Below are positions 4,115 through 42,558 of a stretch of 42,558 nucleotides of DNA, in pieces; positions within the stretch are counted from its first letter, which is position 1, and every line of letters begins with the position of its first letter. The stretch spans positions 1-42,558 of IMG/VR virus record IMGVR_UViG_3300017991_000182; one strand, 5' to 3'. Under the pieces are notes generated by a model. The model had not been told where the DNA came from, did no database searches, and was given only the letters and a program-made list of their open reading frames with translations. A program made the position numbers and the translations under genes. This DNA comes from a virus.

Positions 4115-4324
4115 TCGGTCACATCTCTTACAAAACACACACCAACAAACCACCAAACAAGGACAAAAGCAAAAAAACAAACCACAACACTTAAATACAA
4201 GCACCAAAGCACAAAAACATGACACGGGGTAGTAGTAACAAAACCAACACCGAAAACATAAGAGCACTGTCTGAATATTTTTGTGGTGGTTTTAGGGGGT
4301 ATATACTGGTGTTGAATGGAAATG
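4115..4324. other. Divergent intergenic region, G-poor on the + strand
   Basis: About 4130-4220 is again an A/C tract almost without G, followed by mixed sequence and a GTATATACT element at 4299. An ORF of about 50 codons from near 4219 reads through the TATA box at 4325 and has no ribosome-binding site, so I do not call it. Together with 3308-3514 this is the most origin-like part of the window, on composition and divergent transcription only. Confidence 0.3.
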
Positions 4325-4332
4325 TTTATATA
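4325..4332 (+). promoter_or_regulatory. TATA promoter for the rightward operon, leaderless type
   Basis: TTTATATA is centred about 30 bases before ATG 4359, and no Shine-Dalgarno sequence separates them, so the mRNA should start at or within a few bases of the ATG. A second TATA-like GTATATACTTA (4340-4350) lies at the same kind of distance from an in-frame ATG at 4371, so two leaderless starts are possible. Confidence 0.6.
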
Positions 4333-4358
4333 GTAGTGAGTATATACTTATTCGTAAG

Positions 4359-7475: not shown

Positions 7476-7994
7476 ATGAGTGATAAAGGATTTAGAGACG
7501 GACAAAAAGAAAAACTGATGAAAGAAATTCAAAAAACGATGACTCCCGCAGAAGCAGCCAGGATAAAAGAACAGAGAGAGTTCGACAGCATAGAAGAAGG
7601 CACGTTCAGCTACGAACTAGCTCTTCACTTGGATCAGCTTCGCCAAGCAATGCGTGATGAGCAAGGACAAATCGACAAAATGCTTCATAACATATCCTTG
7701 TTGAACAATAGCATTGCCAGGTGTGAAGATGAGATCAGAACAGGCGATATTAAGCAAAAGCTTGATAACGACCTGGTGATGAACAAAAAAGAATTGTTGA
7801 CTCACATAGCGCATGAGAAATGGCTGAAACTCAATGAGGTCCGAGCAATAGCCAGGGCAGTTCAAAAGATTAGAGGTTACGTCGGTCACAAGGATGTCGG
7901 TGGAAAAATGATTATGACCAAAGAACAATATGCTGACTACGTTGTCGACGTGAGAAAAGGTCTTGAGGAGCGAGGACATGATATTTTCGACTAA
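7476..7994 (+). CDS. Coiled-coil protein between terminase and portal
   Basis: 172 residues, helical through most of its length (LDQLRQAMRDEQGQIDKMLH, then a second helix pair) with a basic end. GGTGAT sits upstream of ATG 7476. No family recognised. Its place between TerL and portal suggests an assembly or packaging accessory, but position is the only evidence. Confidence 0.6.
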   Translation: MSDKGFRDGQKEKLMKEIQKTMTPAEAARIKEQREFDSIEEGTFSYELALHLDQLRQAMRDEQGQIDKMLHNISLLNNSIARCEDEIRTGDIKQKLDNDLVMNKKELLTHIAHEKWLKLNEVRAIARAVQKIRGYVGHKDVGGKMIMTKEQYADYVVDVRKGLEERGHDIFD

Positions 7995-8310
7995 GCGAGA
8001 TCCAAACACTTGCTCAGTCAAACCAGGGTCTTCGCTTCACTCTTGGCACGAAAAAACCAAAAAGTATATAAATGACAAGAGGTATATACTTAAATTAGGC
8101 TTTGCAGCCTTGCTTGCCAAGTATGGAGTTATGGCCAAGGTGAAGACAATTCTTTCCTTGGTCTTCAACATTGTTGGAACTGGAGTGGTAATCTGGTACT
8201 GCTTCAACTTCAAAAATTTTGTGTCTTACGGGCTGATGTCCGCATTACTGATTTATTATTTCAATCTTATAGTCGATAAGATTAAACAACCTTACAAAAA
8301 AGAGGAGTAA
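7978..8310 (+). CDS. Two-span membrane protein
   Basis: 110 residues from ATG 7978 behind GAGGAGCGAGG, overlapping the preceding gene by 17 bases. After a basic N-terminal third come two hydrophobic segments (LVFNIVGTGVVIWYCFNF and YGLMSALLIYYFNLIV) and a Lys-rich tail. A shorter product from Met52 (8131) is possible because a TATA-like element lies at 8064. A membrane protein directly before the portal gene is unusual; it might be holin-like or remodel the host membrane. Confidence 0.55.
   Translation: MIFSTKRDPNTCSVKPGSSLHSWHEKTKKYINDKRYILKLGFAALLAKYGVMAKVKTILSLVFNIVGTGVVIWYCFNFKNFVSYGLMSALLIYYFNLIVDKIKQPYKKEE
8064..8092 (+). promoter_or_regulatory. Possible internal late promoter
   Basis: GTATATAAA (8064-8072) followed by GTATATACTTA (8082-8092), a motif also at 4340. 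Transcription from here would begin near 8095 and include the portal and capsid genes. It lies inside a coding sequence, so chance AT-richness is the alternative. Confidence 0.35.
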
Positions 8311-8320
8311 ACGAAACACC

Positions 8321-9775
8321 ATGGTTTTACCGCTAAGTGAGTTTTTCACTTCAGGTTCACAAACATGCCCAGCTCGGCGTCCATTATTCACTAGCATACC
8401 AAATTCTTGGAATTTTCAAAGTGTGGATAGGCTGTCTAGGATTGGTGGTGATTTCAAAAACTTCTGGAGGATGTTTCGGGAAAGCCCTGAACTCGTCGCT
8501 ACAATAAGCATTCCTATTACTGATGTTCTTGGTGATCGTCCTACGTGGGTTGCTCCTGACGGAAGCGCGCTTGGAAGGAATAAGTTGATGGATGCGCGTA
8601 AGTTTTGGAGAAATAACAGGGGAAAAGAAACTTTGAAAGCCGCACTGTTCGATGCGTTTCTCACGGGTGATTTTTACATTTGGAAAGGATTTCCTCAAAC
8701 GAGCCAGGTCTTGAAAGCAGTCAAGGAAGTAGTTGAAAAGAATAAATACGCGCTCCAAAGATTTCAGCTTAAAGAACTGATGGTAAAGTCTGCTCAAGAC
8801 GAAGACTTGAAAAAGCCTAAAAAGATAGATTACGTCGCGGCAGCCACAGTCAAAATCATTCATGATGAGTTTGAGATTAAAGGTTATGAACAAAGCACCA
8901 ATGGGAAAATCGCTCGGTTCTTACCAGATGAAATAGTGCATTGGCGTTACTTGACGTTGAACGGCAGCGTGAAGGGATTCAGTCCTGTAGAAGCGTTGAC
9001 TGCAGAGATATTTTTGATCCAGCTCGTGAAAAGAAACATGACAAGCCTTATGAGAAATGGTGGCAGTCCGGACAAAATGTTCATCTTGCCTAAAGAGATA
9101 GCTAACAGTCGCAATCACGAATACTTGATTTCTCAGCTCAGAAAGTATAAGAAGGTTGACAACTGGCATGGCAACCTGGTATTCACGGGTGATGTCGACG
9201 TGAAAGACCTTCAGGGAACAGCAAAAGATCTCGAATACAAAGATCTCGCGCTCTACATAACATCAAACATTGCATTCATATACAGCATTCCAATCACAAG
9301 AATACCCTATCTTATTGGATCAAGCGCATCCAAAGGAGATAGTGGCGGGTTGAGTGAGGCAGGATATTGGAATTTCATAAGTTCAATACAGGATGATCTT
9401 GAAGACTTACTGAATAGTCAAGTGTTTGAGAGTCTTGGCTGGCACATAAAATTCCAGAGGAAGTACAAGCAGGATGAAGTCAGGGAAGCTCAAACTCGAA
9501 GCATGAACGCAGATACCATAACAAAATACCAATCAATACTTTCAAAGGCCAAGAAGAAACTCACATCAAAGAAAACTCTTGAGCTGTTGGACTTCGCGCA
9601 GGAAGACATTGAAGATTTTTCTCCTGAAGACTTGGAACTTATGAATGATAGCATGAACCAAAACATGCTTGGTAAGGGTGAGTTGAATTCGGAACAGGAT
9701 AAGCTGGCTAAGAACCAAACCAAGCGTAATGTTGCCAATCAAAAAGGTAGTAAAGAAGCTGTATCGCAAGCTTAA
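8321..9775 (+). CDS. Portal protein
   Basis: 484 residues. Size, position (after TerL, before protease/capsid) and the pattern match HK97-family portals: N-terminal SIPITDVLGDRPTW, a wing segment with LFDAFLTGDFYIWKGF, DEIVHWRYLTLNGSVKGFSP and the stem/clip region FIYSIPITRIPYL. The C-terminal 60 residues are charged and low in complexity (AQEDIEDFSPEDLELMNDSM), typical of portal crowns. It would form the dodecameric DNA channel at one capsid vertex. Confidence 0.87.
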   Translation: MVLPLSEFFTSGSQTCPARRPLFTSIPNSWNFQSVDRLSRIGGDFKNFWRMFRESPELVATISIPITDVLGDRPTWVAPDGSALGRNKLMDARKFWRNNRGKETLKAALFDAFLTGDFYIWKGFPQTSQVLKAVKEVVEKNKYALQRFQLKELMVKSAQDEDLKKPKKIDYVAAATVKIIHDEFEIKGYEQSTNGKIARFLPDEIVHWRYLTLNGSVKGFSPVEALTAEIFLIQLVKRNMTSLMRNGGSPDKMFILPKEIANSRNHEYLISQLRKYKKVDNWHGNLVFTGDVDVKDLQGTAKDLEYKDLALYITSNIAFIYSIPITRIPYLIGSSASKGDSGGLSEAGYWNFISSIQDDLEDLLNSQVFESLGWHIKFQRKYKQDEVREAQTRSMNADTITKYQSILSKAKKKLTSKKTLELLDFAQEDIEDFSPEDLELMNDSMNQNMLGKGELNSEQDKLAKNQTKRNVANQKGSKEAVSQA

Positions 9776-12627: not shown

Positions 12628-12951
12628 ATGACAGCAGCGGCCGGAAATTCAACAATCACACCTGATGTTGGAGAGATAGGAAAAGGACGAAACCAGGAAA
12701 AGATCAGGCGAGTTAAGAGCTTGATTATAGAGACTGAGAACACCGCTGATGCGGCGAACACAATCGCTATAACCCTGGCCGATTATGGAATTACAACAGT
12801 TCAAGGATTCCAAAGTTGGGTTCACACTACCGACAACAGCGTGATAGCCACTGAAGCTAACACGTCAGTTGTAAGTGACGGAGTCTTAACTCTGACCATT
12901 GCAGCAGGAACTGACGACGACAAAAGGGTAATCCAAGTGTTCTACACTTAG
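12628..12951 (+). CDS. Decoration-like structural protein, paralogue 3
   Basis: 107 residues (MTAAAGNSTITPDVGEIGKG). Shares with its neighbours ITLADYGITTVQGFQSWVHT, DNSVIATEANTSVVSDGVLT and the closing DDDKRVIQVFYT. Two bases separate it from the previous stop. The N-terminal 30 residues differ from the other copies, so the conserved part is probably the fold and the N-terminal arm gives specificity. Confidence 0.65.
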   Translation: MTAAAGNSTITPDVGEIGKGRNQEKIRRVKSLIIETENTADAANTIAITLADYGITTVQGFQSWVHTTDNSVIATEANTSVVSDGVLTLTIAAGTDDDKRVIQVFYT

Positions 12952-12967
12952 AGGAGGAAGGCAAAAA

Positions 12968-13300
12968 ATGACAGCAGCAGATGTAAGCGCAATCAAGAAT
13001 GGTGTGTACCACCACTTTGCCGAAGCCTTCAATGCTAAGGATAGCGGAAAGCCTAGGTTCAAAGTAGGGTACATCACAACACCTGACACGGCAGACAACG
13101 CAGATACTGTTACCATCGACTTTTACAAGGAGTTCGGTATCAAAAGACTGATGGGAATCAGAGGGTTCACGCACTCTACAAAGAATAGCGTGATCACGAT
13201 TGAAGCACCTACAACTTCAGTCGTTGGAACTGAGGTCGCCATAGTTATTGGTGGCAGCACAGCGAACAAGAAGCGGTGTTTCGTGCTGTACGGACTGTGA
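12968..13300 (+). CDS. Decoration-like structural protein, paralogue 4
   Basis: 110 residues (MTAADVSAIKNGVYHHFAEA), with GAGGAGG upstream of the ATG. Conserved part: DTVTIDFYKEFGIKRLMGIR, FTHSTKNSVITIEAPTTSVV and STANKKRCFVLYGL. It differs from copies 2 and 3 by a longer helical N-terminus and a strand-breaking insertion (FYKEFGIK). Possibly a specialised copy, for example at vertices or the connector, but this is inference. Confidence 0.63.
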   Translation: MTAADVSAIKNGVYHHFAEAFNAKDSGKPRFKVGYITTPDTADNADTVTIDFYKEFGIKRLMGIRGFTHSTKNSVITIEAPTTSVVGTEVAIVIGGSTANKKRCFVLYGL

Positions 13301-21394: not shown

Positions 21395-22002
21395 CAGCAG
21401 ATACTATTGATGATGCTTGGATGGAGACATGTCTCGTCGGTATTTCCATAATTGACGGGAGTGATGTCCAGTTCGCAAGCCTCACGGAAACAATCGATTT
21501 CGACATTGGAGAAAAGGATATTGAGGGCATACCGTTAGTGAATGGTGGCAGAGTGACTAAGTTCAACCCCGAAGGTGACACGACGCTAACGTTCGAAGCG
21601 TATCCTGTCGAAGCAGGAACTGACACCGGGACTACTGGTAAAGGTTTTTTTGACTTGATGCACAGTCAGGACGCGAGTGTTCCTATTAGGGTATCAAACG
21701 ATCACGAAAGAGACAAGTATAGAGTACTGGTTCTTTGGACGAATGACAGCACGGCAACAACAGCTCAGAGCACAACTGCTCAGAACGCTTCGGCATTGAG
21801 AATAGGTGTTGCAGAAGGAATGTTCACCAGTGTCAAGCCCAGCTTTACCGACGGAGTGTTGAAATTCACCATCACGTACAAATGCGCAGCATTTGATAAA
21901 AGTGCGAACAATAATGTAATGGTGGAATCTTGCGCTGGAAGCACAGCATCAGATGTTCTTCCAGCAGTTGCGGCGTACACTTCAGCCAACAAGTTCGGCT
22001 AA
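21391..22002 (+). CDS. Major tail tube protein
   Basis: 203 residues (MTADTIDDAWMETCLVGISI). Beta-rich body with TETIDFDIGEKDIEGIPLVN and DGVLKFTITYKCAAFDKSAN, the right size and position (before chaperones and tape measure) for a siphovirus tail tube subunit. The gene is followed at once by a hairpin plus T7, as expected for one of the most abundant products. Confidence 0.75.
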   Translation: MTADTIDDAWMETCLVGISIIDGSDVQFASLTETIDFDIGEKDIEGIPLVNGGRVTKFNPEGDTTLTFEAYPVEAGTDTGTTGKGFFDLMHSQDASVPIRVSNDHERDKYRVLVLWTNDSTATTAQSTTAQNASALRIGVAEGMFTSVKPSFTDGVLKFTITYKCAAFDKSANNNVMVESCAGSTASDVLPAVAAYTSANKFG

Positions 22003-22028
22003 AGAAAAATCGTTTCTTTAATTTTTTT
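22001..22028 (+). terminator. Hairpin and poly-T terminator after the tail-tube gene
   Basis: AAAGAAA (22001-22007) pairs with TTTCTTT (22013-22019) around a five-base loop, followed by seven T (22022-22028). The stem starts in the stop codon. Termination may rest mainly on the T run. Confidence 0.6.
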
Positions 22029-22046
22029 ATTGTTGAAGGTGAAAAA

Positions 22047-22397
22047 ATGGATGAAGAGAAAAAAACGAATGAAGAGAAACAGACCAACCCCGCGCACAAA
22101 ATACTGAACAAGTTGCGGCGCAACAGCGAAGACTTGAGAATCAAAAGAGTCCCGAAACCAACGCTGAAAGCGTTCAAAGAACTTGCCGACTCTGAGTTTT
22201 GCGGAGATTACGGGATGACTTTGAAATGGCTCGTCGACGACATCATCAGTGCGGATGCTAAGATGATGATTGCAAAGTTGAACGAGCACCACCAGAGAAT
22301 TTCCTCTTTAGAACAGGCTTTGAGTAACGCGCAACCAGAAGAAGACACGGGAGTTAAACGAATGACAGATGGAAGTCTGCGGAAGGTAAGAAAATGA
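22047..22397 (+). CDS. Tail-module protein with an RHH-like helical segment
   Basis: 116 residues from ATG 22047 behind GAAGGTGA; the frame is open 39 codons upstream but those overlap the tail-tube gene. A charged N-terminus is followed by PKPTLKAFKELADSEFCGDY and GMTLKWLVDDII, which recalls small archaeal and phage proteins with a ribbon-helix-helix-like core (FKELA-EF-DYGMTLK), then a coiled coil. Regulator or chaperone cannot be decided. Overlaps the next gene by four bases. Confidence 0.5.
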   Translation: MDEEKKTNEEKQTNPAHKILNKLRRNSEDLRIKRVPKPTLKAFKELADSEFCGDYGMTLKWLVDDIISADAKMMIAKLNEHHQRISSLEQALSNAQPEEDTGVKRMTDGSLRKVRK

Positions 22398-31754: not shown

Positions 31755-32004
31755 TTCTTTCCACCATTTCCACCAAGTAATCAATATAATTGCACGACGG
31801 AAGTTTAGTGACTTCACTTAAAATACCTTCTGTTTGTAGAGGACAGTATTGTTTTGGTCTGCAACAATAAGTATTTGTCGCGAACGGCAGTTGTTGTCTG
31901 CCAGTATATCCTAGTGCGACTCTTTCAAGACAGTTTTTCACATCTGGATCGGTTTTTCTATCTTTGAGAGCTTCTTCAACTGATTCGGTTATTGTAAGTG
32001 TCAT
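31744..32004 (-). CDS. Cys-rich small protein
   Basis: 86 residues (MTLTITESVEEALKDRKTDP). Six cysteines: VKNCLERV, YCCRPKQYCPL and SCNYID; the spacing suggests a metal or disulfide site. AGAGGT upstream of ATG 32004. Function unknown. Confidence 0.5.
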   Translation of the reverse strand: MTLTITESVEEALKDRKTDPDVKNCLERVALGYTGRQQLPFATNTYCCRPKQYCPLQTEGILSEVTKLPSCNYIDYLVEMVERNGR

Positions 32005-32015
32005 GTTTGTACCTC

Positions 32016-32225
32016 TTATTTTTTAGATAGATCGTCTATGGTGCTCATTATTTTTTGATAAAGCACCCCATCGATGCCTATTAATCTGCGATGCGATCCC
32101 CACGCGGTATCTATCAATGTTTTAATGTCATCTAAGTGAAGGTAAACGCCTTGTTTCATTTCATCCGGCTGAAGCGTAGCCACATGTCCACTTTCGAGTA
32201 CGTGTACTTTGTTATTTTCAGTCAT
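32016..32225 (-). CDS. Small hypothetical protein
   Basis: 69 residues (MTENNKVHVLESGHVATLQP), with GGTGG upstream of ATG 32225 and the ATGA overlap with the stop of the previous gene. Short strands then helix (HLDDIKTLIDTAWGSHRRLI). Unknown. Confidence 0.5.
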   Translation of the reverse strand: MTENNKVHVLESGHVATLQPDEMKQGVYLHLDDIKTLIDTAWGSHRRLIGIDGVLYQKIMSTIDDLSKK

Positions 32226-32395
32226 TCTTCCACCAGATTACATCCTTTCCCTTTTTTATTCTTAATCAACTTCACTATCTCTTCATAATGTCCTTTTCTT
32301 CGGACTTCTTTTATTATGAGCTTGTTCATCTGACTAACGCACCAATCGCATAGTCTGATGCGTTTTTCTAAAAGAATTAAGTAAAAAGATTTCAT
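32222..32395 (-). CDS. Small basic hypothetical protein
   Basis: 57 residues read directly: MKSFYLILLEKRIRLCDWCV, then basic helices (IIKEVRRKGHYEEIVKLIKN). GGGAGG upstream, ATGA overlaps on both sides. A Cys-x2-Cys (CDWC) and later Cys could hold a metal. Unknown function; overlaps show it is expressed with its neighbours. Confidence 0.5.
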   Translation of the reverse strand: MKSFYLILLEKRIRLCDWCVSQMNKLIIKEVRRKGHYEEIVKLIKNKKGKGCNLVEE

Positions 32396-32658
32396 TGTTG
32401 CCTCCCAAGATTCACTGCAAAAACTTTAGTGTGTCCGACGAATGTATGTTCTTTTATCAAACCTTTGTATTTGAGCTTCAGTATCAAGTTGTGCACTGTT
32501 GTTTTCTTGCTTTTCAGCATTGTGGCAACGTCTGATGCGCTCATAGGTTTTCTCATCATTGTTAGGAACACGTTTACTTCGGCAGGAGTCATTCCGTTCT
32601 GCAGAGTGAACTCTAATCCCGGGAGTAATTCTTGTCCGGGAAAAGATGGTTCGGTCAT
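32392..32658 (-). CDS. Winged-helix DNA-binding protein
   Basis: 88 residues. MTPAEVNVFLTMMRKPMSAS, then DVATMLKSKKTTVHNLILKLKYKGLIKE is a clear winged-helix domain of the TrmB/MarR-like kind, ending in the wing (THVFVGHTKVFAVN-like). It probably controls viral or host transcription. The ATG overlaps the stop of the ssDNA-binding candidate upstream, so it is made early with the replication proteins. Confidence 0.7.
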   Translation of the reverse strand: MTEPSFPGQELLPGLEFTLQNGMTPAEVNVFLTMMRKPMSASDVATMLKSKKTTVHNLILKLKYKGLIKEHTFVGHTKVFAVNLGRQQ

Positions 32659-33431
32659 TTCTGTAACTCCGCGAGTTGTTTGTTGAGCTGTTCCATTCCT
32701 TGGTCGTAGCCTTCTTTGGTTAGCGCTCCTTCTTTGTGGAGTTTTTCAAGGTTTGCCATTCTGTCGTTGATGGCGAGGATTTCGTCAGCTTTTTCTTTTT
32801 GATCTGCGGGTGCTTCTTCAGTTTTTGCAGCTACCTCTTCGTGCTTGACTTCTTTTTTCACGTCTTGTGGTTTGTTGGCTTCTGCTTTTTCATCGGCTTT
32901 CTTGTTTTCTTCCAAGGTGATTTCTGGACCTTCGTACTTGCCGATGTCTTTGATGGTGCTCATCTTGATTGGATCTTCGCCTTCAACCTTTTTCTCGTAG
33001 TCGTCTACGTTGACTTCACACCATTTACCGATGAATTCTTTTGGTTTGAGTGGTTCGTCTGCGTTGAATTCCCAGCCGAGTGCTTTGAATATTTTTGTTA
33101 TGGCGCTGTTTGGAGTGACTGCTGTTCTTTTTTCTCCGCTTTTTTGGTCTTTGTAGATGTGGTACACAAAATTTCCTAGTGTGACGTCCATCATTTTCTT
33201 TGCTTGGCCTTCGACTTCGACTTCTTGTTGTACTGGGCTGACTGGTTTGCCGTTTTCGTCTGCTTTGTAGATGGCGAATTCCATTATGATCTGGTTTCCG
33301 TATTTGCCTTCTACTAGTGTGCCATCTCGTTCGAATGGTTTTACGTCGATGAGTTTGGCTGGGTAGTAGCCTTTTTTGATGTGTGGTTTTGGTCCGAAGT
33401 TGCTTGTTTGGTTGCTTACTGGTAGTTCCAT
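32655..33431 (-). CDS. Probable ssDNA-binding (OB-fold-like) protein with SHOCT-like tail
   Basis: 258 residues, GGAGGA upstream. The first 150 residues (HIKKGYYPAKLIDVKPFERD; YGNQIIMEFAIYKADENGKP; FIGKWCEVNVDDYEKK) resemble phage ssDNA-binding proteins with an OB-like core. An acidic linker follows, then a SHOCT-like C-terminal module (MANLEKLHKEGALTKEGYDQ). Role in replication is inferred. Has its own promoter at 33484. Confidence 0.6.
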   Translation of the reverse strand: MELPVSNQTSNFGPKPHIKKGYYPAKLIDVKPFERDGTLVEGKYGNQIIMEFAIYKADENGKPVSPVQQEVEVEGQAKKMMDVTLGNFVYHIYKDQKSGEKRTAVTPNSAITKIFKALGWEFNADEPLKPKEFIGKWCEVNVDDYEKKVEGEDPIKMSTIKDIGKYEGPEITLEENKKADEKAEANKPQDVKKEVKHEEVAAKTEEAPADQKEKADEILAINDRMANLEKLHKEGALTKEGYDQGMEQLNKQLAELQK

Positions 33432-33483
33432 TGTGTTTTCCTCCTTGGTTTTGTGTTTTTTTAAAATTTTTCTCCCTTATGAG

Positions 33484-33496
33484 AGTATATACTTTT
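33484..33496 (-). promoter_or_regulatory. TATA promoter for the ssDNA-binding gene operon
   Basis: On the - strand AAAAAAGTATATAC lies about 55 bases before ATG 33431; transcription would start about 25 nt downstream, leaving a short leader with GGAGGA. It contains the palindrome GTATATAC also seen at 4299, 4340 and 8082. Confidence 0.6.
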
Positions 33497-33504
33497 TTGA
33501 GTTT

Positions 33505-33802
33505 GAATGGGGAAGGTGCACCCTCCCCTGAATCCCTAGAGATTCTTTGGTGTGGTTTGCTGTGTTCTTGAATCTTCGTCGTCTTCTTCGTTTTGTCGTG
33601 TGTGTTCTCTTCAGCCGTTTTTCCAACAGCGACTTATTTTGCGCGCGCCGTTGGAGATTCCCTCAACCACAAGGTAAATCAGCCATTGGTGCTGGGGGTG
33701 TTCGTCCCCCCATCAAAGGATCGTGAAGCTGGCACGACCAGAAATCAAAGGGGGTATTTTTTGGTCGTACCGGCTCGGACTTTTTGGCTTGAAGTTGCCT
33801 TT
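33505..33802 (-). ncRNA. Candidate structured non-coding RNA
   Basis: No gene is found here, but on the - strand five stems follow each other: 33775-33763 with 33739-33727 (12 of 13 pairs, one of them U-G), a G/C stem at 33712-33693, 33654-33646 with 33631-33623 (9 pairs), 33545-33530 and the near-palindrome 33528-33509. Three stems contain a G-U pair only when transcribed leftward; on the other strand these would be A-C mismatches, so RNA from the - strand is favoured. A TATA element at 33824 predicts the 5' end near 33800, and the next promoter begins at 33496. About 290 nt; function unknown. Confidence 0.6.
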
Positions 33803-33820
33803 CTATAAGTATACACTCAC

Positions 33821-35050
33821 TCATTTATATATCTTGTGTTTACAGTTTATAGGAATGTTATCAATTCCGAGTGAAGACAAAAACTCATGCACGTACTTAC
33901 AAGTCAACGTATAATTCTTCTGAGACAGCCTATACTCAATATCCTCATCCTTCACAGGATCACCCATACGAACATTCCAATCACGCAACAACTCTGCAGC
34001 CTGGTCAGGATGAACCCGCTTCAACTCATTGGCCAGGATAAACATAGCTCTTTGGTACCCGTCTCCTGCTTCAGAAAAGTTATCACTTAATATCAATTTG
34101 ATACAATCACGCAACTCAACCTCATCCCTCTGAGGTAACCAAGCATTCAAAGAACGCTCCTTCCTCTTGATTTTAGCACTTTTACGCTTCGTGTCCATAT
34201 CCGTTATGAAATCCTCAACTAATTCCTGGACGTGATCAGGTCTGCTAAGTTTGATCCTCCCAACCTTTGGATAGATCCTGTTCTTGGCATTACACACGTA
34301 AGGAATGAAGCTCAAGTCTTTATAGCTGTACCCGAGGAATGTCTTGTAACCTGCCTTATTCCGGCTCAGTTCGCTCCTAATCAAGTGTTTGCTTTTGATA
34401 AGGTCAGTGTCGAATTCCCTGATTTCTAAGTCCCAGCAGCTTATAATGCGTTCTCTGAGCCATTCTATGAACTTCTTCACAAGCCTGGAACGATACTTGA
34501 ACTTCTCCATCAGTTGCTTCTGCAGAAACATGTCCAATTCCTTGAAACAACCAAAATCAAAATATACGTGTACGTGCAAACTTTTGTTCCCAGAGTAATA
34601 ATACAACGGCTTGAACCCTTTACTCTCCAAAATCCGTCCTATAATGCGAGTAGCCTCGTAATTCTTCTCATAACAGTCAGGACAAGCATTAACTGCCAGC
34701 AATTTCTCTTTTTTACGCCTTAAACAGTCTTCACACTGATAATCACTCTCAACAACAACCTCATTCTCCAGAGTACTCCGGTGAATATCATAAGCTGGCT
34801 GCACCTGATAAGAAGTCTGCCTATACTCATTCGTCGTGAACTCAACAAGAGGACCAGGAAACTTCACCCACTTCGTCCAAGCACCACTCACCACATCCCT
34901 CATGGCTATCTGCAGAGATCCACTACTCAACCTATCAAGCTTGCTCAAATGTTCGTATCTGTCCTGGATTATGCTGAGTCCAAGATTGATATCACCCATG
35001 ATATATTCCCATCCTACAGGATCAGTCCAAGGCTGTGCTATCATACTCAT
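33821..35050 (-). CDS. Archaeal-type primase (PriS-like)
   Basis: 409 residues from ATG 35050, overlapping the stop of the preceding gene (ATGA), with GGGGTG upstream. Motif II appears as YYSGNKSLHVHVYF (about 150-163), motif III as HLIRSELSRNKAGYKTFLG (about 222-240), and a Cys-x2-Cys pair (CEDC and CPDC near 105 and 125) is a zinc site. These match the catalytic subunit of archaeo-eukaryotic primase. The usual DxD of motif I seems to read ESD. It would make RNA primers with the MCM-like helicase; no PriL is seen. Confidence 0.75.
   Translation of the reverse strand: MSMIAQPWTDPVGWEYIMGDINLGLSIIQDRYEHLSKLDRLSSGSLQIAMRDVVSGAWTKWVKFPGPLVEFTTNEYRQTSYQVQPAYDIHRSTLENEVVVESDYQCEDCLRRKKEKLLAVNACPDCYEKNYEATRIIGRILESKGFKPLYYYSGNKSLHVHVYFDFGCFKELDMFLQKQLMEKFKYRSRLVKKFIEWLRERIISCWDLEIREFDTDLIKSKHLIRSELSRNKAGYKTFLGYSYKDLSFIPYVCNAKNRIYPKVGRIKLSRPDHVQELVEDFITDMDTKRKSAKIKRKERSLNAWLPQRDEVELRDCIKLILSDNFSEAGDGYQRAMFILANELKRVHPDQAAELLRDWNVRMGDPVKDEDIEYRLSQKNYTLTCKYVHEFLSSLGIDNIPINCKHKIYK
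33824..33844 (-). promoter_or_regulatory. TATA promoter of the candidate ncRNA
   Basis: On the - strand TGTAAACACAAGA is followed by TATATAAA, the same 21-nt element as at 447-467 except for two transitions. It lies over the last codons of the primase gene and predicts a start near 33800, exactly where the structured region begins. Confidence 0.6.
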
Positions 35051-35454
35051 TTTGACACCCCGAACACATCCTTGATCCTTACTGTTGACTTTTGAGGAAC
35101 CAATTCCCAATTAAGAACTCTCCACAACATTTGTCTTCCGCACTTGACGACAAAGATATACTTGGCTACTTTACCTATAGCATCAGCCTTACTCTTCAGA
35201 ACAAAATGATTGTCGAGATTGATGAAAAACCTTCCCAAATGAAAGCTGTTCACGTCGTGATGAGGAATTTTTCCTTTCGATTTTCTACAATGATTGCTAT
35301 TGTAGTATCTGTTGAACAAATTACAACTCTTCACTTCCCACAACACGTTTTTGGTTTCGAAATCTACAAAGTCAAGATGGCTCTTCTGTCCTCTGAACCA
35401 TTTCCTCATACGTTCTTCAGTTTCGTACCCTGCATTGTTTATTTCGTGCGGCAT
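35047..35454 (-). CDS. Probable PD-(D/E)xK nuclease, Hjc/VRR-like
   Basis: 135 residues. GYETEERMRKWFRGQ, then LDFVDFETKNVLWEVKSC shows an acidic residue, D-x-x-x-..., E-x-K (WEVKS), the pattern of PD-(D/E)xK nucleases such as archaeal Holliday junction resolvases. It sits between helicase and primase, fitting replication or recombination. Overlaps the helicase end by 16 bases. Confidence 0.6.
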   Translation of the reverse strand: MPHEINNAGYETEERMRKWFRGQKSHLDFVDFETKNVLWEVKSCNLFNRYYNSNHCRKSKGKIPHHDVNSFHLGRFFINLDNHFVLKSKADAIGKVAKYIFVVKCGRQMLWRVLNWELVPQKSTVRIKDVFGVSK

Positions 35455-37511
35455 TTTCCCATGTGGTGCGGCCTTATAATTCCAGCATCATCTGTTATCA
35501 CGTCGTGATGTAACAAAATACTCATCGTCTCAATATACTCGTGACGCTTCAAGAATTTCAAGGCCATCTCTTTCACTTCATTTCTTGGAAGCTCTTTTTT
35601 CTTATTGTTGATTTTCCAGTAGAGAACCTGACAATTTTCAGGCAAGTAGAATATTCTATCGTGAACAGGCAAGTTTCTAACCATGTCAACATCTATCCAA
35701 GATTTGATTATGTTTTTCCACACAAGTTCTAACATCTCATAGTCTTTCTCTGTTGCTTTGAACCCCATATCTTTATCGACTAAACACCTGGTCTTGACTA
35801 TACCATCTATCAAGCATTCTATGTGGTGCATGTGACGCGCATCGTAATGTCTTTTCAAGTCTTCATTCATTAACACGTTCGCACTATCCTTCACAGCTTC
35901 CACTCTATCCATATCATACTCACATTTAAACGTGTGAAGGTAGTCCAATATGCTAACCCAATCATTATCATCAATAGTGTATTCGTACTCTTTCAAATCA
36001 ACATCCTTACTACGTCTGATAAGATCAACATGCTCTTTAGGTTGGTAATAAATAAGCCACCTACTCAAGAAACTCTCATCCAAAGACCTAACCAAATCAG
36101 TCATAGAATTCAAGCCCCTTATAGGATTTGTCGTCGCAATAATCCTAGATGTCATGTTCACACTTATCCTGCTAACTCCACTTCCAGCTTCTCTTTTTTG
36201 GTGTTCGAGCAAGTCATTCATCACAGCAACACCTTCTTCCCTGTTGTCTCTGTCAGCTCCTCCTCGCGTGTTCATCATGCAACGCAAGAACTCATCACAA
36301 TAAGAGAATCTATTGCTCTCTGCCAAATAACCAAGACGAGCAGGGTTGTATTTGAAGCTAGGAATCAAATGTTTTAACGTGCTGCTGCTCCCGCTGAATA
36401 TATCTCGGGTTTCCTGGCTGCGCTCGTGCAAACTGTTCAGCATCAAACTCTTACCACTATGTTTTTCTCCTACGATCATCAAGTGCATCGGATAATTATT
36501 AAACAGCCCGACAGGCGAGTGAGTCAGCCAAGACCATACCAGCCACTTAAACCATTTCGGTTGTTTCAGTAAATATTGTTTCCTTCCTTTCTTCACAGTG
36601 AATGGGAGATCAAACAAGTTCTTCCTTGATACTTTCAAAAATCCAAGTCTGGCTCTGAACTCGTTATGATTCTCAAATTTTATGATTCTGTTTCTGCAGT
36701 TCTGCGCGAATAGTATAGGTAGTTGAGTTGGCAACCGCGCAGTCTCAGTGAGCATTTTCTTATCTTCGCAATGCGTCACGACGCCAGTAATTACGTAATC
36801 ACCTATCAATAATTTTTCCAAAGAGAACATCATCAGCTCTTGATCCTTCTCAGTAACTATACGGTACACGTAGAATTCCTGGTCGATGCTCTTTATGACA
36901 TTATAATCTTTTTTGCTGAAGCCTTCGCCGAACAAGAATATTTTTTTGAATGCTGGACTTCCGGTTTCATCTTTTTTCTTGCTCTCCGTCAAGTGCGCTA
37001 TGTATATTTTTTGGGGATGTTCGTAAATCTCAGCAACGACTTTTCCATGAATTATTTTCTCTCTGGAAATATAGAATTTTATCATGTCAGTTCTTTTGTA
37101 TACTCCGTTGGTCAGCTTTTTCAGTTGGGTATAATTGTATGCTTGGTGGATAGCTACTATTCCTTCTTGACCTCTTCCGACATGAGCGTACTTATCTATG
37201 ATCTCTTTTTCAACTCTGTCTTCCTCGTCAGTGTAAAGGCTTATTTGTTTAGTGTTCTCGTGAATATCTATTTCTTCATCGATGAACTTCGCATCACCTT
37301 CTTCAACTCCATTCTTCACTAAGTAGTCTTTTATTTTTTTCAAACCATCAACCAATCTTACTCTTCTTTCTTCGTTGGTCACGTCAGGCAAGTCAGAACA
37401 CATTAATGCAATATCTGTTTCTATTCTGCTCCAGATCGTGAAGCCACCGAAACGTGTCTTGATGGCATCCATGATTACAGTTCTGATGCTGCTGCTTGAT
37501 ACTTCAGTCAT
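35439..37511 (-). CDS. MCM-like replicative helicase (AAA+)
   Basis: 690 residues, typical of MCM. Walker A GEKHSGKS (near 350), Walker B FSYCDEFLR (near 405), sensor 1 RIIATTNP (near 458) and arginine finger ESFLSRW (near 480) are in the MCM order, and the N-terminal 320 residues look like the MCM-type OB/N domain. It unwinds DNA at the viral fork. Overlaps both neighbours; GGAGA upstream of ATG 37511. Confidence 0.82.
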   Translation of the reverse strand: MTEVSSSSIRTVIMDAIKTRFGGFTIWSRIETDIALMCSDLPDVTNEERRVRLVDGLKKIKDYLVKNGVEEGDAKFIDEEIDIHENTKQISLYTDEEDRVEKEIIDKYAHVGRGQEGIVAIHQAYNYTQLKKLTNGVYKRTDMIKFYISREKIIHGKVVAEIYEHPQKIYIAHLTESKKKDETGSPAFKKIFLFGEGFSKKDYNVIKSIDQEFYVYRIVTEKDQELMMFSLEKLLIGDYVITGVVTHCEDKKMLTETARLPTQLPILFAQNCRNRIIKFENHNEFRARLGFLKVSRKNLFDLPFTVKKGRKQYLLKQPKWFKWLVWSWLTHSPVGLFNNYPMHLMIVGEKHSGKSLMLNSLHERSQETRDIFSGSSSTLKHLIPSFKYNPARLGYLAESNRFSYCDEFLRCMMNTRGGADRDNREEGVAVMNDLLEHQKREAGSGVSRISVNMTSRIIATTNPIRGLNSMTDLVRSLDESFLSRWLIYYQPKEHVDLIRRSKDVDLKEYEYTIDDNDWVSILDYLHTFKCEYDMDRVEAVKDSANVLMNEDLKRHYDARHMHHIECLIDGIVKTRCLVDKDMGFKATEKDYEMLELVWKNIIKSWIDVDMVRNLPVHDRIFYLPENCQVLYWKINNKKKELPRNEVKEMALKFLKRHEYIETMSILLHHDVITDDAGIIRPHHMGKCRTK

Positions 37512-42131: not shown

Positions 42132-42558
42132 TCACCCTTTTTTGTTTTTTTTTAACTGTTCAACTTCTTCTTTATACTCTTTTTCTTTTTTCTTCCACAG
42201 TTCAACTTGCCAATCGAACTCGAACGAAAACATATTGCAAAACACACAATCTATTTTGACATTACCGTAGACCCTAGCATCACCGGAGACCCTAGCATTA
42301 CCGAAGACCCTAGCATTACCGTAGACCTCAGCATCACCGGAGACCTCAGCATCACCAGAGACCCAAGCATTACCGAAGACCCAAGCATTACCGAAGACCC
42401 TAGCATTACCGTAGACCTCAGCATTACCGAAGACCCAAGCATCACCGGAGACCTCAGCATCACCAGAGACCCAAGCATTACCGAAGACCCTAGCATTACC
42501 GAAGACCCTAGCATTACCGAAGACCCAAGCATCACCGGAGACCTCAGCATCACCGGAG
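42132..42558 (-). CDS. Hexapeptide-repeat protein, C-terminal part; runs off the window end
   Basis: Same gene as 1-322. Reading on the - strand in the repeat frame, 16 full units (S/F/Y)G(D/N)A(W/E/R)V and a degenerate last one (YGNVKI) are followed by about 40 residues (DCVFCNMFSFEFDWQVELWK and a Lys/Glu-rich helix) to TGA at 42132. The helix could mediate trimer or membrane contact. A product of at least 25 repeat units is implied. The other reading of this stretch (a Met-Leu-rich frame) has no start or plausible composition. Confidence 0.8.
   Translation of the reverse strand, partial: SGDAEVSGDAWVFGNARVFGNARVFGNAWVSGDAEVSGDAWVFGNAEVYGNARVFGNAWVFGNAWVSGDAEVSGDAEVYGNARVFGNARVSGDARVYGNVKIDCVFCNMFSFEFDWQVELWKKKEKEYKEEVEQLKKNKKG
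42253..42558 (-). repeat. 18-bp tandem repeat array, right arm (17 units)
   Basis: Continues the array of 1-154. Units combine three variable positions (S/F/Y, D/N, W/E/R) so that S goes with D and F/Y with N in all 17 units here; a single F-D unit occurs in the left arm. Joined end to start the frame would be off by two bases unless the shared AG is counted once, so the contig ends overlap by two bases or the repeat is collapsed. Confidence 0.9.

Follow-up and report, generated by a model that had tools for sequence, protein, structure and literature searches.

A folded RNA lies in the leftward replication operon of this virus, upstream of a gene for a protein resembling single-stranded DNA-binding proteins (SSB-like), and we give about an even chance to its being the ~370-nt 5' leader of the viral SSB-like operon. 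This reading draws on a strand-specific hairpin cluster far above shuffled sequence, on an upstream promoter unit (P1) conserved in relatives ahead of the same gene, and on the lack of a leftward terminator together with the SSB-like fold of the downstream product. Transcription would start near 33800 at P1 and head leftward; the transcript would cross five hairpins and then an A-rich unpaired tract, and would read through into the SSB-like gene. The leader would set SSB output in cis, most likely because a protein binds, or the RNA refolds, close to the ribosome-binding site, in the way that T4 gp32 acts on its own mRNA. Should it prove to control that gene, an archaeal virus would offer a counterpart of the gene 32 circuit of T4.

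The window (the whole stretch of DNA analysed, 42,558 bases) is the record of a single virus, with the tailed-virus genes for a terminase large subunit, a portal and a LamG-domain structural protein. The region of interest lies within the replication operon, which runs leftward in the order AAA+ helicase-like gene, primase, gap (33432-33820), 258-aa gene and winged-helix gene. A close relative of the operon lies on a contig (L010) binned as Candidatus Pacearchaeota, and the host is therefore probably a DPANN archaeon. RNA-based control is essentially unexplored in viruses of these archaea, and a literature phrase search gave almost nothing on the viruses themselves. The coordinates of the features are collected in Table 1.

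Table 1. Features of the leftward replication operon and of the structured RNA within it.
Feature	Position	Strand	Details
AAA+ helicase-like gene	35439-37511	leftward	class judged from P-loop GEKHSGKS; no family match
Primase	33821-35065	-	archaeo-eukaryotic PriS-type; motif YYSGNKSLHVHVYFD (SGNKSLHVHV); stop overlaps P1
P1 (promoter)	33809-33831	-	TATA box 33831-33824 TATATAAA; palindrome 33816-33809 GTGTATAC; predicted start ~33800
Extra segment	33493-33808	-	between two palindrome copies; unique to this virus; forms the body of the structured RNA
Possible closed domain	33609-33794	-	long-range stem 33794-33790/33613-33609 around H1-H3, folding probability 0.73
H1	33726-33776	-	10 bp + 4 bp, probabilities 0.99 and 0.93
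H2	33693-33712	-	6 bp, probability 0.89
H3	33622-33655	-	10 bp, one G-U; an alternative fold of 33623-33689 competes
H4	33530-33545	-	GAATC/GATTC; 5' arm alternatively pairs with 33570-33574
H5	33509-33528	-	8 bp, one G-U, probability 0.98
Second palindrome	33485-33492	-	GTATATAC, then AAAAATTTT; 61 nt ahead of the SSB-like start codon
A-rich unpaired tract	33432-33480	-	contains AAAAATTTTAAA and the ribosome-binding site GGAGG (33444-33440)
SSB-like gene	32655-33431	-	258 aa; OB fold by model
Winged-helix regulator	32392-32658	-	same operon; Pfam TrmB 7.2e-6, above cut-off

The identity of the downstream product was approached through structure prediction. An AlphaFold model of the 258-aa protein, built from six sequences and of modest confidence (pLDDT 61), combines a beta domain resembling an OB fold with a helical tail. 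Compared with the PDB, its best match is PrgE of plasmid pCF10 (8s4s; VIA-align Z 8.5, also 8.1), a protein solved also in its DNA-bound form. Foldseek returned many SSB and RPA matches, with PDB E-values of 2e-3 at best, and DUF669 and phage proteins annotated as SSB are among the matches in BFVD. On these model comparisons, an SSB-like OB-fold replication protein is a sound working label rather than a proven identity. The gene that follows it, in an order shared with L002, L003, L010 and L012, encodes the winged-helix protein, a candidate reader of the palindrome described below. On the other side of the gap, the primase profile matches cellular DPANN primases, two of which were scanned and both hit Pfam DNA_primase_S/_lrg; a structure model of the viral primase was too poor for use. 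After its ESDY motif, this primase carries a CxxC...CxxC zinc-ribbon-like insertion not present in the relatives it was aligned with. In L010 (2928-5072), the primase is broken at the SGNKSIH motif by an intein-like insert, within a 714-aa frame.

All five hairpins of the original prediction were confirmed on the leftward strand at 33505-33800, where no gene is supported, and the G-U pairs it assigned to three of the stems in leftward RNA are indeed there, one each in H1, H3 and H5. When the five best non-overlapping hairpins were summed and compared with dinucleotide shuffles, the leftward strand scored 102 against 70 ± 7.5 (z 4.3), a value equalled by none of 150 shuffles; the rightward strand was unremarkable (z 1.5). 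Over both strands of the record the cluster ranks first of 572 windows, with the window phase set to this stretch, and on a finer, unaligned grid of 2284 windows it comes second to fourth, and its raw score is the highest in the 42.6-kb record. A single stretch, 7862-8157 on the minus strand, exceeds it in hairpin z.

Fold energy gave a weaker signal in the same direction. Against dinucleotide shuffles, one of the checks named in the original prediction, leftward z-scores were -2.5 to -3.2 (304-296 nt), reaching -4.0 when both promoter palindromes were included and -3.34 for a 193-nt core picked afterwards (0 of 200 shuffles as good); the rightward strand gave -1.1 to -1.7. In absolute terms the two strands have equally low fold energies, because the G/T-rich rightward sequence pairs easily, and they differ only against shuffles. 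A scan by 150-nt windows did not single out the region, which came merely 15th and 30th of 566. The A-richness of the unpaired bases was dropped as evidence, as shuffles reach the same value. Pseudoknots lie outside the predictions of the folding programs used. Taken with the hairpin cluster, these comparisons show that the leftward structure exceeds what composition gives.

The promoter ahead of this structure was examined in eight records that share the gene order, namely seven virus contigs (L002, L003, L006, L007, L012, L082 and L086) and L010; L011, a near-duplicate of L012, was counted with it. The TATA element predicted upstream of the hairpins is real and overlaps the last primase codon. 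Seven of the eight relatives likewise have a TATA box overlapping the primase stop or lying just after it, and in six (L002, L003, L006, L007, L010 and L012) the palindrome AGTATATACT follows a few bases on. L082 keeps the TATA box and lacks the palindrome; in L086 the TATA box instead lies near the SSB start, behind an apparent short coding stretch. With one mismatch allowed, the palindrome occurs nine times in the whole record against 1.1 expected, and the same TATA spacing recurs at several copies, for example at 4340 and 8082. This conservation, together with the palindrome excess and the repeated spacing, argues from sequence that P1 truly belongs to a class of viral promoters. A composite 'palindrome plus A-run' motif was rejected in L007, L010 and L012, where copies appear by eye inside coding sequence.

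Other copies of the palindrome mark further sites. Two GTATATAC palindromes stand 41 bases apart at 4299-4348, the second of them 12 bases ahead of the first rightward gene, which is probably a control point between the leftward and rightward operons. In L003 (5242-5316), a tRNA-Met (CAT) gene ends the replication operon and is directly followed by a GTATATAC palindrome. The stretch at 7862-8345, between virion genes, is hairpin-rich and carries a TATA plus GTATATAC promoter at 8065-8089, before a small membrane-protein frame (8133-8310); the 296-nt minus-strand window from 7862 has the top hairpin z of the record (4.76). It shares the promoter type with the structured RNA but surrounds the membrane-protein frame, and we did not group the two.

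Comparison of the primase-to-SSB gaps suggests how the structured segment arose. The gap measures 68 nt in L012, 75 in L002, 78 in L003, 103 in L010 and 389 in this virus. In the short-gap relatives it holds one unit, comprising the TATA box at the primase stop, the palindrome, a short A/T-rich leader and the ribosome-binding site, with the single palindrome 58-80 nt ahead of the start codon, the place taken here by the second palindrome. P1 occupies the ancestral primase-stop position, and the SSB start is as far from the second palindrome as in the ancestral arrangement; on the simplest reading of the sequences, therefore, ~324 nt were inserted between the halves of one promoter, splitting the ancestral promoter/leader at the palindrome. 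The four short-leader relatives have none of the structure, which is thus not essential to the operon. Leaders are lengthened also in L006, L007 and L082 (148-253 nt; ~150 nt in L006 and L082). Only the distal promoter was found in L006 and L082, with no proximal promoter seen in their long leaders, so in these two the mRNA would be expected to begin far upstream, and transcription through the long leader would be the parsimonious account. The family offers natural short- and long-leader forms of one operon to compare.

The original prediction took the structure for an independent ncRNA between two promoters. Its leftward orientation, the structured RNA and the conserved upstream promoter all stand; independence and an end at a second promoter find no support. 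The supposed second promoter after the last stem proved to be only the shared palindrome, with no TATA box found 12-17 nt upstream of it, and no terminator-like site (leftward U-run) that could define a 3' end before the SSB-like gene was found in 32000-36000. P1 does provide a promoter on the structured strand, although in the relatives it drives the SSB-like gene. We still regard as unlikely, and no worse than that, a ~290-nt RNA transcribed from P1, ended or processed before 33490 and acting in trans, while the second palindrome separately drives the SSB-like gene. The structure does lie between two promoter-like elements, the highest raw hairpin score of the record falls exactly there, and the GTATATAC element at 33485-33492 could act as a weak TATA box for a separate short transcript, which counts against a leader. 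L007 has a TATA box and palindrome at 4150-4175, a moderately structured stretch and then TATATAAA ~60 nt before the SSB start, which may be a second promoter, giving an order of promoter, structure and promoter there. Set against this, H5 is followed by no U-run, the second element lacks its TATA box, and a homologous RNA is absent from L007 and from all other relative records searched. That the RNA is freestanding, ~290 nt long, of a class outside Rfam in a DPANN-archaeal virus and targets replication or the host in trans also seems doubtful; such an RNA, if real, would count as a new viral ncRNA.

Two of the roles proposed earlier for such an RNA, packaging and host mimicry, found no support. 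GOLLD, ROOL and the phi29 pRNA are structured non-coding stretches in viral genomes, and in this the present RNA resembles them. It is, however, shorter than GOLLD and ROOL, has no Rfam match and is more probably a leader than a separate transcript. Packaging finds no backing in Rfam or in the terminase of this virus, which is T4-like and unlike the phi29-type motor. As for host mimicry, the region matches no tRNA and nothing similar occurs in the host-type genomes sampled.

Searches for homologues bear on a further alternative, that a neutral or decaying insert, horizontally acquired or mobile, split the promoter and that its hairpins are now functionless. At the gathering score Rfam gave no match, the best sub-threshold score being 17 bits against a 50-bit cut-off, and the permissive hits (rli61 at 17 bits, SAH and ALIL) are at chance level; ARAGORN and tRNA/tmRNA searches of the region found no tRNA, and an Rfam scan of the relatives found only a tRNA. 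A blastn search of 261 DPANN genomes with the insert as query returned only chance matches of 17-42 nt, many of them to the low-complexity GAAGAAGACGACGAAG stretch. With a covariance model built from the single sequence there were no hits in the eight relatives' records or in 119 DPANN genomes, and scores on the L006 and L007 leaders were at chance level even with filters off; its second hit within the record (21978-22061, 16 bits), with most of the model deleted, was put down to chance. A gapped H1 pattern run over all IMG/VR produced 27 hits, close to what chance was estimated to give, and in no case did the match reach into the remaining RNA; an alignment of the leaders of this virus, L006, L007 and L082 revealed no convincing shared structure. 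Across the relatives, IMG/VR and the sampled DPANN genomes, blastn, nhmmer, the pattern scan and the covariance model thus yielded no homologue, and at present this is one orphan structure whose role is plausible but unproven. That no search found a homologue, that the insert occurs in this virus alone and that palindrome copies flank it in a duplication-like manner would all suit a neutral insert. Strong strand-specific hairpins with G-U pairs are nonetheless unexpected for debris, and beyond the promoter palindrome the ends carry no terminal inverted repeats. Nor does it behave as a mobile element or MITE: it is single-copy in the record and was not found in the 261 DPANN genomes. We consider a functionless insert rather improbable.

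That the segment acts as DNA, for instance as a replication origin or as a primase loading site beside the primase gene, is very unlikely: its setting in a replication operon between the primase and SSB-like genes and its inverted repeats and palindromes would fit, but the strand asymmetry and G-U pairs point to RNA, folds with DNA parameters are less unusual (z -2.1 and -0.9), there are no iterons, and relatives with the same operon lack it. A small protein gene, for example the 53-aa frame at 33663-33824 whose ATG overlaps the primase stop codon, is scarcely credible, as it has no ribosome-binding site, Pfam match or counterpart in the relatives and would traverse H1 and H2.

A leader of the SSB-like operon can be set beside known systems. 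In T4 gene 32, the SSB nucleates on a folded element, spreads across an unstructured tract and blocks translation (PMC535899). The same anatomy is found here, with a folded part (33509-33794) followed by the unpaired A/U-rich tract with its GGAGG, and the control of SSB output may possibly be autogenous by analogy. The gene 32 operators of T4 and RB69 differ in sequence, and the pseudoknot is reportedly missing from phage RB49 (PMC535899); the leader of this viral SSB-like gene likewise varies among relatives. It differs from T4 gene 32 in size and form (~370 nt and five hairpins, against roughly 70 nt and one pseudoknot), and also in belonging to an archaeal virus, in having an OB fold by prediction alone and in that autogenous binding is only proposed. 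We therefore treat the resemblance as a lead, not as membership. Archaeal and bacterial ribosomal-protein leader RNAs (PMC7247131) similarly place a structured leader before the gene of a nucleic-acid-binding protein; those leaders were found through conservation across many genomes, unlike the present RNA with no homologue.

Two other folded stretches of the record were noted. The strongest fold-energy signal lies at 12900-13100 on the minus strand (z -7.5 in a 150-nt window, -3.95 over 201 nt), antisense to a rightward frame (12968-13300) whose sense strand is ordinary, and is probably a coding-sequence inverted repeat. Near the right end, at 42181-42480 on the minus strand, two adjoining 150-nt windows fold well (z about -3.1 and -3.2).
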